Below the pieces are notes generated by a model, which saw only the letters and a program-made list of their open reading frames with translations, had not been told where the DNA came from and did no database searches. A program made the translations under genes and the position numbers. Below are positions 19,677 to 25,068 of a DNA stretch of 35,519 bases, in pieces. This DNA is from Candidatus Babelota bacterium (GTDB lineage: Bacteria > Babelota > Babeliae > Babelales > Chromulinivoraceae), in the NCBI GenBank assembly GCA_026389025.1, contig JAPLIQ010000014.1, forward strand, positions 1 through 35,519, in the 5' to 3' direction. Within the stretch, counting starts at the first letter, position 1. Every line of letters starts with the position of its first letter.

Positions 19677-20894
19677 TTAACCAATTATTTTTCTTAAACA
19701 TTGCAGTAAAAACTCAACTTCTTCTTTTGTGTTGTACATAGAAAAGCTCACACGAACCGAAGCGTTGATGCCACAAGCTTGGTGAAACAGTTGCACGCAA
19801 TGATGCCCTGCTCGAACGGCAATGCCAAACTGATCAAGGTACGCAGCAATATCATGTGCGTGGTGTATCTTGGAGTAAAAAGTAACTAAATGTCCATGCT
19901 CATTACCCACACTACTCACAATGACAATATCATCCATATGCCTTAAACCATCAATCAACATTTTTGTCAGCATAGTTTCATGCTCAGCAAGCTCTGCAAA
20001 ATCAATATTGTTTTCGACAAAATCAACAGCCGCACCAAGCCCAATAACTTGTGCAATGTTTGGAGTTCCTGCTTCAAAGTTATAAGGAAACTGTTTAAAT
20101 GTTGAATTTTTTTCTTCAACTGAAAAAACCATACCACCACCAAATGTGCTTACGGTCATTTCAGGTATCATCGATTCTTTTACAAATAAAACACCAACGC
20201 CTGTTGGTCCGAATAATTTATGGCCTGAAAAGGCTAAAAAATCACAGCCAATTTTGGCGATGTCTAAGCGCTGATGAGCCACAGACTGACTTGCATCAAT
20301 CAAAACTTTTGCACCTACTGCGTGAGCCAGTTTGGTGATAGCTGCAACATCATTGCTGCTACCAAAAAGATTAGAGCTGTGGACAATGGCAACCAACTTT
20401 GTTTTTTTTGATAGATGTTTTTTAAACACTTCTACATCAACGACACCTTGCGAGTCGACTGGCATAATGGTGAGCACTAAAGATTTACGTAAGGCTAACT
20501 GCTGCCACGGTAAAAAATTTGAATGATGCTCTACAGCAGAGACTAAAATTTCATCACCCTGTTGCAAGTTATTCTCAGCCCATGAACTTGCAACCAGATT
20601 TATACCTTCTGTCGCGCCTGATGTAAAAATTATTTCTTTGCTGCTTGCGCCAATAAATTGAGCAATTTTATCTCGAGAGGCTTCATATGCTGTCGTTGCT
20701 TTTTCTGCAAAGGTGTAAACGCCTCGACCTACGTTTGCTTTATACGTTGTGTAGTATGAAACAATTCTGTCGACTACGCATTGTGGCATTTGAGCTGTTG
20801 AGGCAGAGTCAAAATAAATAAACGGATACCCGTTAACTTTTTGCTTAAAAATAGGAAATTGTGCTCGCAGTGATTTTAAATCATTTTTTGGCAT
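19677..20894 (-). CDS. sufS: Cysteine desulfurase SufS
   Basis: SufS is a PLP enzyme that takes sulfur from cysteine for Fe-S assembly. The 405-residue protein starts FDSASTAQMP and shows TSGATEGINLVA, VEHHSNFLPWQ, the PLP lysine in FSGHKLFGPTGVGVL, and the catalytic cysteine in RAGHHCVQLFH. These are group II (SufS) features. It overlaps sufD by 19 bases and is the last gene of the suf operon. No sufE or sufU is seen nearby, so the sulfur relay partner is unknown. Confidence 0.95.
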   Translation of the reverse strand: MPKNDLKSLRAQFPIFKQKVNGYPFIYFDSASTAQMPQCVVDRIVSYYTTYKANVGRGVYTFAEKATTAYEASRDKIAQFIGASSKEIIFTSGATEGINLVASSWAENNLQQGDEILVSAVEHHSNFLPWQQLALRKSLVLTIMPVDSQGVVDVEVFKKHLSKKTKLVAIVHSSNLFGSSNDVAAITKLAHAVGAKVLIDASQSVAHQRLDIAKIGCDFLAFSGHKLFGPTGVGVLFVKESMIPEMTVSTFGGGMVFSVEEKNSTFKQFPYNFEAGTPNIAQVIGLGAAVDFVENNIDFAELAEHETMLTKMLIDGLRHMDDIVIVSSVGNEHGHLVTFYSKIHHAHDIAAYLDQFGIAVRAGHHCVQLFHQACGINASVRVSFSMYNTKEEVEFLLQCLRKIIG

Positions 20895-21619
20895 AGTTTC
20901 TCCATTACTTTTTCATCTTCAAAATTTACTACGATCTCTTTAAAAAACGACTCTATTAAAAGCTCATAAGCTTTTGGCTTAGAAAGCCCACGGCTTTGCA
21001 AGTACCAGAGCTGCTCGTCATCAAATTTTCCAATCGCACTTCCATGAGAGCATTGCACATCATGTTGTAAAACTTCAATAGATGGTATGGAAATAACTTT
21101 TGCTTGCTTGCTCAGTAAAATATTTTTATTTTCTTGGGATGCTTCAGTTTTTTTTGCCTGCTCGCCGATAAAAATTAAACCTTCGTATAAAGCCTGAGCT
21201 CTACCTTTAAGCATACCTTTTAGCGCCAATTCACTTTTGGTACGTGGTCCAGTGTGATATTGGAACGTTTTTATGGAAATATTTTGATCACCATCTAAAG
21301 CGTATATCCCTTTGATTGATGCTTGCGCACCATCACCCTGCAGGTACACATAAATCACAACTGAAAGTTTGCAAGACTCGATCAACGATATCAAAAAATC
21401 AAGTTGAGCATTTTTTTCAAGCACAAAATGATACTCAATGGTCGATTGCTCCTCAGAGAAATATTCGTCTTGCACATGAAACGTGCACTGTGAACCCTGC
21501 TCAAGCACAACATCTATTTTTTGAGATGCGCCAGAAATAGCGTGCCTTGCATGCAAAACATCATTTTGAGCTACATTGATTTTTTGCACTGGATCGTAAA
21601 AATTCAATTGATGTGACAT
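20876..21619 (-). CDS. sufD: Fe-S assembly protein SufD, short form
   Basis: SufD pairs with SufB in the SufBC2D scaffold. The 247-residue product keeps the beta-helix core and the C-terminal SufC-binding region. The family segment HDVQCSHGSAIGKFDDEQLW, with the conserved His, and the LQSRGLSKPKAYELLIESFF helix are clear. It is far shorter than typical SufD (about 400-430 residues) because the N-terminal helical part and part of the core are absent. Its start follows the helical-partner stop by eight bases and its end overlaps sufS. Confidence 0.85.
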   Translation of the reverse strand: MSHQLNFYDPVQKINVAQNDVLHARHAISGASQKIDVVLEQGSQCTFHVQDEYFSEEQSTIEYHFVLEKNAQLDFLISLIESCKLSVVIYVYLQGDGAQASIKGIYALDGDQNISIKTFQYHTGPRTKSELALKGMLKGRAQALYEGLIFIGEQAKKTEASQENKNILLSKQAKVISIPSIEVLQHDVQCSHGSAIGKFDDEQLWYLQSRGLSKPKAYELLIESFFKEIVVNFEDEKVMEKLCQKMI

Positions 21620-21627
21620 AAAAATAT

Positions 21628-21969
21628 CTATTTGCCCTGTTGCAGCGCTGCTGCATAATTAAATCGATAAAAATAATTTTCCCACAAGCTGTCGCTTGAG
21701 CCATACTCATTGGCACCGGTAAAATAATCAACCAAGGCTTCACGTATCGTTACAAGCTCTTTTAACGTTCCTGTATTTTTATATTTTGGGTCAGCTATGG
21801 TTAAATCCAGTAATTCCAAAGCCCTTGCAAGAGCTTGCTGACTTAATTCAAGGTCTTCTTTTTTCTTCCATGAAATCGTTAAAGAAACATCACAACCAAC
21901 GTTAGCGAGTTGTTCCATTAAAGTCATTTCAAACCATCGGCCCGCGGCCATTTGTTTATGCACGCTCAT
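21628..21969 (-). CDS. Conserved small helical protein of unknown function
   Basis: The 113-residue product is predicted all-helical, with AAGRWFEMTLMEQLANVG near the N-terminus, SQQALARALELLDLTIADPK in the middle and IREALVDYFTGANEY near the end. I recall similar short uncharacterised proteins in other bacteria but cannot name a function. It overlaps the DUF5674 gene by 14 bases and lies between sufB and sufD. The tight overlap suggests the two products are made together and may bind each other. Confidence 0.72.
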   Translation of the reverse strand: MSVHKQMAAGRWFEMTLMEQLANVGCDVSLTISWKKKEDLELSQQALARALELLDLTIADPKYKNTGTLKELVTIREALVDYFTGANEYGSSDSLWENYFYRFNYAAALQQGK

Positions 21970-22315
21970 TGTAGATCACCAATGTGTTTACTAACTCAGC
22001 AATCTGTTTTTGTATGCCGACATTTTCAACTTTGCGACTTTTATTTCCAGATGATGGACGTACGTTGATCATCGAATCAAATTCAATCCAATGTTCACGT
22101 TTTGCCTTAGAAGGATATAAATTAATACCCCACAAATCTTCTTGCTGTGATTCTAGCTCCATGATGCAATAAAATTCTTCATCGCCATGCATTTCACCAT
22201 CGATAACCATGATTCTTTTTTCTAAATCAACCACAGCTTTTATCATGCCGCCAAACATTTTTGACGCCATTTCTTTTAATTCATCAACCGTAATCGTTTG
22301 ATCTACAACCAACAT
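21956..22315 (-). CDS. DUF5674-family protein
   Basis: The 119-residue product fits the DUF5674 pattern. An N-terminal ITVDELKEMASKMFGGMIKA is followed by VVDLEKRIMVIDGEMHGDEE, then EDLWGINLYP, WIEFDSMINVRPSSGNKSR and a C-terminal helix (QIAELVNTLV). The function of the family is unknown. It lies 55 bases after sufB, inside the suf operon, and overlaps the next gene by 14 bases. A toxin-antitoxin-like pair is possible, but nothing in the sequence shows it. Confidence 0.78.
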   Translation of the reverse strand: MLVVDQTITVDELKEMASKMFGGMIKAVVDLEKRIMVIDGEMHGDEEFYCIMELESQQEDLWGINLYPSKAKREHWIEFDSMINVRPSSGNKSRKVENVGIQKQIAELVNTLVIYNERA

Positions 22316-22370
22316 ATTTGTCCTTTTAATTTAAATTAAATTTTTTATTCATGCTTACTATCCGCAAAAC

Positions 22371-23696
22371 TTATCCTATGGAACCTTCCATCTCAAGCTC
22401 AATGAGTCGATTGATTTCAACAGCATATTCCATCGGAAGCATGCTGACAAAACAATCAATAAACCCATTAACAATCATTGCTTGCGCTTGTTGCGCAGAC
22501 AAACCTTTGCTCATCAAATAAAATAATTGTTCATCACTAATTCTACTCACCGATGCTTCATGACCGATATCAACATTGTCTGATGCAATATCGACCACCG
22601 GATAGGTATCGCTACGAGAAGTTTCATCAAATAAAAGTGCATCACATTGAACACGAGACACAATCCCGCAAAGATTTTTTCCAACTTTTAAAAGTCCGCG
22701 ATAGCTTGAACGTCCACCATCTTTGCTAATCGATTTTGCAACAATGTTTGAGGTAGTATCACTCGCCAAATGAATGATTTTTCCACCAGAATCCTGATGC
22801 TGCCCTTTGCCAGCAACAGCTATGGAAACAATTTGCCCTTTGCTTTTTTCACCCTTAAGCACAATGCATGGATATTTCATAGTTACTTTGCTACCAAAGT
22901 TCCCATCGATCCATTCAACCGTTGAACGCTCATGCGCGTGGGCACGCTTGGTCACTAAGTTGTAAACATTATTTGACCAATTTTGAATGGTCGTATACCT
23001 CACATGAGCATCATTTAAAGCTACAATTTCAACGACAGCGCTATGAAGAGAGCTCGAACGGTAAACTGGCGCGCTGCAACCTTCAACGTAGTGCACAAAG
23101 CTTCCTGGTTCAGCAATGATGAGCGTTCGCTCAAACTGCCCCATGCTTTGCGAATTAATTCTAAAGTAGGCCTGCATTGGCTGATCAACATACACCCCTG
23201 AAGGAATATAGACAAAACTACCACCACTCCACACAGCAGAATTTAATGCTGCAAATTTATTATCGTGCGGAGGAATAATCGTTGAAAAATATTTTTTAAA
23301 AATCTCAGGATGTTCTTTGAGTGCTGATTCAGTATCTAGAAAAACAACACCCTTTTTTTCCCAACGCTGCTTTAAACGTTTGTAAATAACTTCTGATTCA
23401 AATTGAGCACTCACCCCTGCAAGCATTGATCGTTCTGCTTGAGGAACGCCTAATTTTTCAAATGTGTTTTTAATATCGTCGGGAACACGATCCCAGTCAC
23501 GTTCTTTTTCCATGATCGGTTTTACATAAAAAAAGATGTCATCAGTTGACAGACCTGAAAGATCAGCGCCCCAGTTTGGCATAGGCTTTTGCTCAAAAAT
23601 TTCTAAAGATTTTAATCGAAAATCAGTCATCCATCCTGGTTCATTTTTTTGCTCAGAAATCTGTATGACTATTTTTTTATTCAGACCTTTTTGCAT
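22371..23696 (-). CDS. sufB: Fe-S assembly scaffold protein SufB
   Basis: SufB is the main scaffold on which SUF builds clusters. The start at 23696 (441 residues) has GAGAGGG about ten bases upstream. A start at 23705 is too close to it, and an earlier frame start at 23756 lies inside sufC. Family motifs are clear: [46 protein letters not shown]-type signature ([20 protein letters not shown]), [20 protein letters not shown] with the cluster-building Cys, and [20 protein letters not shown]. It overlaps the end of sufC by 20 bases. Confidence 0.95.
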
Positions 23697-24404
23697 ACGA
23701 TCCATACCCTCTCGCTTCAATATCATCCAGGAACTCGCTACCGCCTGTACGAACAATAGATCCGTCGATTAAAACATGGACCACGTCAGGTTTTATAAAT
23801 TCTAAAATTCTTCGATAATGAGTCACGATAAGAAAAGATGCTTGTGGGTTATTGTGCTTGTACCATAAAAGTCCGTTGGCAATCATTTTTAAACCATCCA
23901 CATCCACACCTGAATCGATTTCATCAAGGATGGCAAGCTTAGGCTGCAAAAGCAGCATTTGAAGCAGTTCAAAACGTTTTTTTTCACCACCAGAAAATCC
24001 AACGTTAACAAATCGTGTCAAAATTGTTTCAGGCAAACCAACTACCGCAAGCAGTGGCTTTAAGCGATCTAAAAACTCAGGCATTGTCTCAGTTTTAACT
24101 ATTTCAGTTTTTTTAAGGGCAATTGCAGAAATTTCTTTTAAAAAACTAAGAACAGCAAGACCGCTGATTTCTACCGGATGCTGCAAAGCAAGATACAGAC
24201 CTTTTTGCGCCTTGATGTGAGTTGGACTTCTCCTTGGGCAACATCATACGTTGGATGGCCCATTAAGCTTGAAGCTAGAGAACTTTTTCCAGAACCATTA
24301 GGACCGACAAGCACATGTACCGTGCCGGGCTGAATTTGCAGATTACATTGATTTAAAATTTGAGAGCCATTGATGGCTACAGAAAAATTTTTGATTGATA
24401 ACAT
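23677..24404 (-). pseudogene. sufC: SufC ATPase gene, broken by an out-of-frame deletion
   Basis: SufC is the ABC ATPase of the SufBC2D complex. The N-terminal part (24404 down to about 24220) has MLSIKNFSV and Walker A GPNGSGKSSL, up to GEVQL. The C-terminal part (to 23677) is in another frame: KAQKGLYLALQHPVEISG, holding the Q-loop Gln, then signature VNVGFSGGEKKR, Walker B LAILDEIDSG and H-loop IVTHYRRIL. At 24215-24224 the frame shifts. Compared with E. coli SufC, roughly a dozen residues expected between GEVQL and KAQKG are missing. All motifs are otherwise intact. It is therefore either a very recent knockout or a local assembly error. No initiator with a ribosome site was seen for the second part. 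Confidence 0.85.
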
Positions 24405-24488: not shown

Positions 24489-24520
24489 AAAAAGAGTGGC
24501 TCTTAAAAACCACTCTTTTT
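24489..24520 (-). terminator. Terminator of the MshEN-protein operon
   Basis: Arms AAAAAGAGTGG / CCACTCTTTTT pair perfectly around a ten-base loop. The hairpin lies 18 bases after the stop of the MshEN-domain gene on the minus strand. Confidence 0.85.
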
Positions 24521-24537
24521 AAATCAAACTTACAAGA

Positions 24538-25068
24538 TTAAGGCAAATCGATAATATCTGAGTCTTCTTGACCAGTTTCATCAATATCTTCTGTTTGCTC
24601 GTGCGTCTCATATGTTACAATATCTTCATCATAATATTCTTCGATAGCATCAACAATATCGCGCTGGATTCCAGCATACACGTTCACCGTATAGGCAACG
24701 TAGTTACCAAACTCTTCAAGGCCTTGCTCGTCTTCAGGGTTGCTCATCACAACGGTAATCATATCTTCATCAACATCTAAAGGGATAATTCCTTTGTTGA
24801 GTAAGAAATCTTTTGGAAAAAGTAGCAACAATTGATGGTTGAAAAAATGACCCCGCACATCAAAAGGTGGTAGTCCAAAAACTCCCTGCAGAGCTTTGAG
24901 CATAGTTTCACGATCAATGATTCCTTCATCGATTAAAATGTCATCAATTCTTGCCGTAGCGCGACCTTTAAATTCGTTAACAAGAGAGGCAGCTTCAGCT
25001 TCTCCCATTGCACCCTGCTTAACTAATTGATCTGCTAAGCGAGAAACAAACATTTGTTTTTTTTCCAT
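24538..25068 (-). CDS. Stand-alone MshEN (GspE/PilB N-terminal) domain protein
   Basis: The 176-residue product matches the N-terminal domain of type II secretion and type IV pilus ATPases. It shows RIDDILIDEGIIDRETMLKA, then GLPPFDVRGHFF, LLLLFPKDFLLNKGIIPLDV, MITVVMSNPEDE and a C-terminal helix (DIVDAIEEYYDE). MshEN domains bind c-di-GMP in some proteins. There is no ATPase domain here and the tail is acidic and probably disordered. It could be a regulator of a pilus or secretion ATPase encoded elsewhere. It lies nine bases after the small membrane-protein gene, in one operon. Confidence 0.78.
   Translation of the reverse strand: MEKKQMFVSRLADQLVKQGAMGEAEAASLVNEFKGRATARIDDILIDEGIIDRETMLKALQGVFGLPPFDVRGHFFNHQLLLLFPKDFLLNKGIIPLDVDEDMITVVMSNPEDEQGLEEFGNYVAYTVNVYAGIQRDIVDAIEEYYDEDIVTYETHEQTEDIDETGQEDSDIIDLP

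Follow-up and report, generated by a model that had tools for sequence, protein, structure and literature searches.

We describe a pair of small overlapping genes, encoding a DUF5674 protein and a helical partner, that lies between sufB and sufD in a bacterium of the phylum Dependentiae (the home phylum hereafter). The pairing is real, widespread and near-obligate. As the best reading of the data we tentatively favour a nomadic, near-obligately paired module that resembles a toxin-antitoxin system and is unrelated to Fe-S assembly. It looks like a travelling two-gene module that landed at the suf locus by chance.

Two genes between sufB and sufD

The window (the whole stretch of DNA analysed, 35,519 nucleotides) comes from a genome assembly of 905 kb. 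On the minus strand the gene order is sufC (with a broken frame), sufB, DUF5674, partner, sufD, sufS. The features used below are as follows:

21956..22315, minus strand: DUF5674 (PF18924) gene, the first of the pair; 119 aa, ATG start, predicted alpha+beta
21628..21969, minus strand: partner gene; 113 aa, ATG start; encodes a predicted helical bundle from a family that Pfam does not cover
22316..22370, minus strand: A+T-rich spacer of 55 nt that separates DUF5674 from the stop codon of sufB and contains AAAAGGAC ahead of the ATG
22371..23756, minus strand: sufB (flank, outside the module); TIGR01980, 682 bits; exact start uncertain
20876..21619, minus strand: sufD (flank); TIGR01981, 193 bits, under the curated cut-off of 222
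19677..20894, minus strand: sufS (flank); TIGR01979, 491 bits

The first-pass annotation had placed two same-strand genes with a 14-base overlap between sufB and sufD, and both the coordinates and the profile matches of the flanks agree with this: the reading frames share 14 nt (21956-21969), and sufD starts 8 nt past the partner stop on the same strand. The first protein belongs to the DUF5674 family, scoring 93.4 bits against PF18924 (1.1e-26; cut-off 27), with residues 3-111 aligned to positions 2-108 of the 109 in the profile; it is thus above the Pfam curated cut-off across the full domain. The partner has no worthwhile match in Pfam, NCBIfam, PHROGs, PADLOC or PDB.

Both genes are unlikely products of chance, since homologues of both proteins are conserved across tens of genomes, the gene order is kept, and dN/dS values of 0.04-0.15 for both genes (four close pairs where both were computable) point to purifying selection. 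An artefact or chance reading frames can therefore be ruled out. No natural fusion of DUF5674 with its partner was found among 113 and 124 ORFs.

Two observations concern the upstream part of the operon. The only sufC match of the genome (23677-24404, minus strand) is spread over two frames. Relative to the intact copy in a related genome (G030), it lacks approximately eight codons near 24186-24220 and goes out of frame there; the break may be genuine or stem from misassembly. Upstream of sufC, a hairpin with a stem of 14 pairs and a run of T after it (24489-24520, minus strand) is likely a terminator; the MshEN-domain gene at 24538-25068 would then be separate from suf.

Pairing across genomes

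Of the intact DUF5674 ORFs in the home phylum, all 30 are immediately followed by the partner. Scanning 84,980 species genomes brought up at least 565 loci with DUF5674. Among the best 80 of these, which are the closest relatives and hence a biased sample (some 25 named phyla according to record titles), the partner is present in 80 of 80: directly downstream in 78, at 883 nt in one, and reversed with an overlap of approximately 17 nt in another. Less biased is the sample of Patescibacteria, where 60 loci were read and 59 hold an intact DUF5674; a small ORF occupies the partner position in each of the 59 (34 of the same family, 25 divergent). Similarly, on cyanobacterial plasmids an ORF of approximately 118 aa follows ten out of ten sampled DUF5674 genes, with an overlap of 1-20 nt in nine. 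Overall, 69 of 111 pairs share a 4-nt overlap.

Profile comparisons indicate that the partners of the divergent and cyanobacterial groups are probably distant homologues of the one in the window. Their profile-profile score against the partner family is 29.0 over approximately 69 columns, compared to at most 13.1 for 40 column-shuffled nulls, and the A3-profile scores of the divergent partners exceed those of control ORFs (p = 6e-13). A motif occurs in 22 of the 25 divergent partners against 3 of 396 controls; as it was picked post hoc and the controls include non-genes, this count is supportive only.

Both genes are also inherited together: the correlation between DUF5674 and partner distances is 0.43, whereas the null does not exceed 0.17; this is a sign of co-transmission and not of binding. 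The partner evolves faster (median identity of 50% against 58% for DUF5674). Absence from other genomes, which the first-pass annotation would have taken as a sign of incidental adjacency, is not what was found: the pairing is present widely. That it had escaped description also holds for the searched full texts (open-licence only, which leaves room for a description in a preprint or subscription journal), none of which mentions DUF5674 or PF18924.

Distribution and mobility

The genomes with DUF5674 number 31 of 101 in Dependentiae, 71 of 287 in Patescibacteria, 66 of 145 in Omnitrophota and 3 of 198 in Bacteroidota (phylum names of these four samples being inferred from the record of the centre genome). 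In three phyla this amounts to approximately 25-46% of the sampled species. As a rule there is one copy per genome.

The mobility of the pair is apparent from several sources. When the 25 phylum labels are mapped onto a tree built from 73 pairs, 35 changes are needed (minimum 24, shuffled mean 41); the labels come from record titles, in which metagenome bins may be misnamed, so that the number of phyla is somewhat inflated. Neighbouring genes are close to random: among 553 of them at 110 loci the biggest common family has 8 members, and the recurring families are mainly housekeeping ones. Furthermore, DUF5674 occurs on 30 plasmid records, all cyanobacterial, of which 23 are conjugative or mobilizable. 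The near-obligate adjacency, the many phyla, the random neighbours and the plasmid copies all favour the earlier suggestion of a small mobile unit that settled at this position.

Pairs on plasmids of Nostoc, Anabaena and Calothrix (L121-L130) in some cases adjoin a DpdE, N-6 DNA methylase or DUF1998 gene, or transposases. In one Bacteroidota genome (L271 3085-6614) two pairs face each other across a gene of 529 aa, with one DUF5674 broken; this arrangement could be a composite mobile element.

A viral origin was considered and rejected: DUF5674 is absent from 50,697 phage records, and one pattern, run against 2.9 million viral contigs, gave no match. Target-site duplications and recombination sites were sought at the insertion as well; only short, chance-like repeats surround the pair.

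The sufB/sufD junction in relatives

A function in Fe-S cluster assembly, as hinted at by the position in the suf operon, would agree with the orientation of the pair, which lies on the same strand 8 nt ahead of sufD and is probably co-transcribed with suf. Nevertheless we regard it as highly improbable. Although sufB was detected in 86 of the 101 home-phylum genomes, the pair is found beside it in the source genome only; the other home-phylum genomes that carry the pair always have it away from suf, and the number of other sampled genomes in which suf genes flank it is zero. In a member of the same genus (G028) it is located on the same contig, approximately 11 kb from the suf junction. Conversely, six genomes (G013, G014, G016, G057, G064 and G087) carry the pair or the partner while no sufB was detected. 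No conserved suf linkage was found that would make the pair a SUF component.

The junction itself is informative. In G030, whose SufB is 85% identical, sufB and sufD directly abut or overlap: the site is empty, and the spacer is missing there. In five further relatives (G024, G025, G027, G028 and G029; loci L081 and L102-L105) it is filled by differing, unrelated genes, some on the opposite strand. Insertions between sufB and sufD are thus tolerated in this bacterial family, and a functional link to Fe-S assembly need not be assumed. On the basis of these empty and otherwise filled junctions we reject the link that the first-pass annotation had offered as one of two options; the place of the pair in the suf operon is incidental.

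Regarding the genes at this junction in the five relatives, one encodes ankyrin-like repeats and several products are probably secreted.

Structure and conserved residues

The AF2 model of the partner is a high-confidence bundle of five helices (7-14, 17-36, 40-58, 67-84 and 93-110) with a pLDDT of 91.4 and a pTM of 0.84, which bears out its initial description as helical. Two positions deviate in the protein of the window: R30 is replaced by L and R74 by T, residues conserved in 70 of 70 and 68 of 70 others, respectively.

The DUF5674 model (AF2) is alpha+beta with only fair confidence (pLDDT 78.6), and its fold has no match among PDB or viral structures. An alignment of 70 sequences shows twelve invariant residues (K26, D30, D45, E47, W62, N65, S81, N84, R86, P87, N91 and R94), all retained by the protein in the window; their invariance suggests an active or binding site. 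The most conserved stretch, from N84-x-R-P to R94, has a pLDDT near 50, and in the model it would fit a loop that becomes ordered upon binding of a partner or substrate.

Neither protein matches an HTH, RHH or AbrB domain, the DNA-binding domains looked for as a type II characteristic. Sequence profiles reveal no similarity of either protein to a known toxin or antitoxin, nor is there a fold match, and neither matches a PADLOC model of a known anti-phage system. Known toxin-antitoxin, HEPN-MNT, defence and phage families were thus all discarded as candidates after searches of Pfam, NCBIfam, PHROGs, PADLOC and PDB.

Solo and broken copies

A partner is missing beside three divergent DUF5674 genes of Omnitrophota, two of which (in two genomes) directly follow glmS while the third precedes dnaJ:

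L286, 2505-2921: partnerless omnitrophotal DUF5674 gene
L289, 2207-2590: partnerless omnitrophotal DUF5674 gene
L288, 2536-2880: partnerless omnitrophotal DUF5674 gene

They are possibly a domesticated form, and because of them the rule that DUF5674 never occurs without its partner was dropped as an absolute. Intact partner-only copies are fairly common, being found in several other home-phylum genomes and in 8 of 287 Patescibacteria. Broken DUF5674 genes occur in G012, G057 and G093, and an intact partner adjoins them in the first two. Toxins or antitoxins that occur on their own are frequent among known toxin-antitoxin systems (PMC2701414). Still, the DUF5674-only and partner-only loci weigh against a simple toxin-antitoxin system and hint at roles outside one.

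At one locus (L282 2041-2951, minus strand) a partner gene without DUF5674 overlaps an upstream alpha/beta-hydrolase-like gene by 4 nt. Judging from this locus, the helical partner may team with other proteins too.

Comparison with known systems

HEPN-MNT systems combine a small helical protein and a small alpha+beta protein in a bicistron, as does the DUF5674 pair. However, gene order and motifs differ, and unlike in HEPN-MNT (type VII toxin-antitoxin, PMC11586414) Pfam gives no HEPN match for the partner and no nucleotidyltransferase match for DUF5674. Several features are shared with type II toxin-antitoxin systems (Makarova et al. 2009, PMC2701414): two small proteins (113-119 aa) in a putative operon of overlapping genes (14 nt here, mostly 4 nt elsewhere), a sporadic distribution with horizontal transfer, carriage on plasmids, and solo relatives. 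Against a toxin-antitoxin nature, and unlike type II, the pair has no DNA-binding domain, was not found in phages and is mostly present in one copy per genome instead of several.

The nearest precedent for resolving such a pair is TumE-TumA, found by the same kind of reasoning, where DUF6516 and its neighbouring partner turned out to be toxin and antitoxin (PMC10584680). In both cases a DUF protein that is small, alpha+beta and without relatives in the PDB occurs in a conserved two-gene layout with a small, diverse partner. On the other hand, TumE is mostly downstream of its antitoxin whereas DUF5674 comes first, and one TumA partner is a RelB-like antitoxin whereas no DUF5674 partner is a known antitoxin (PMC10584680); no sequence relation between the two pairs was found.

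The closest solved fold to the partner is that of FliS, the flagellin export chaperone, an up-down helical bundle of the same size (Foldseek, TM 0.51-0.55). The match reaches E = 0.5 at best with 11-18% identity and no sequence match, which does not place the partner in this family. In addition there is no flagellar context: the neighbour is DUF5674, not flagellin.

Interpretation

A toxin-antitoxin-like module is what would be expected from the small size, the overlapping cistrons, the near-obligate pairing, the conserved first protein with a faster partner, the patchiness, the plasmids and the decay of DUF5674 beside an intact partner. Some of these features can be read differently. The two proteins could form a cooperative, non-toxic pair that spreads for a conditional benefit, with DUF5674 acting as a regulator or enzyme and served by the helical bundle as its dedicated chaperone or small subunit, FliS-like in its outline. 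The invariant polar residues of DUF5674, the usual single copy per genome and the DUF5674-only genes by glmS and dnaJ all suit this explanation, and overlapping cistrons fit a stoichiometric complex equally well. It would also draw on the fold match to FliS (TM 0.55), but with E = 0.5 that match is not significant, and helical bundles resemble many things. Given that patchiness (close relatives without the pair), random neighbours and plasmids are unusual for a metabolic complex, we consider a cooperative pair rather unlikely, though it deserves to be kept in mind.

We find it more doubtful still that the pair serves in anti-phage or anti-plasmid defence and is not an addiction module. It is mobile, patchy and carried on conjugative plasmids, and the proximity of some cyanobacterial copies to a DpdE, N-6 DNA methylase or DUF1998 gene would agree with defence. 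This has to be set against the lack of a PADLOC model match, neighbours that at 110 loci are chiefly housekeeping genes instead of defence islands, and an occurrence mostly in small-genome lineages.

Returning to the toxin-antitoxin-like module, the data show that the two genes are paired and mobile, and such a nature of the pair is plausible: the two proteins would bind physically, one being toxic and the other neutralising it. The module would move between bacterial phyla as a unit and enter permissive, often intra-operonic sites, the sufB/sufD junction being one such site in the source lineage. DUF5674, which is slow-evolving and alpha+beta with invariant polar residues, would act as the effector, perhaps as an enzyme acting on RNA or nucleotides. 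The faster-evolving helical bundle, produced from the overlapping second cistron, would bind DUF5674 and restrain it, possibly through ordering of the N84-x-R-P...N91..R94 loop, which has low confidence when DUF5674 is predicted alone.

Implications

Summarizing, we propose, with somewhat less than even confidence, that DUF5674 and its fast-diverging helical partner are a new cross-phylum mobile conflict module (toxin-antitoxin or defence) whose effector fold is unsolved, present in roughly a quarter to half of the species of Patescibacteria, Dependentiae and Omnitrophota and overlooked as it is rare in cultured model bacteria. If true, a large share of uncultured small-genome bacteria would have in common an undescribed travelling gene pair, made up of an effector without a known fold and a partner without a family name, and the pairing would allow a cheap and direct test. 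It would also offer a first clue to the function of hypothetical proteins numbering several hundred or more, and would caution against deducing what such a unit does from the operon that happens to host it.
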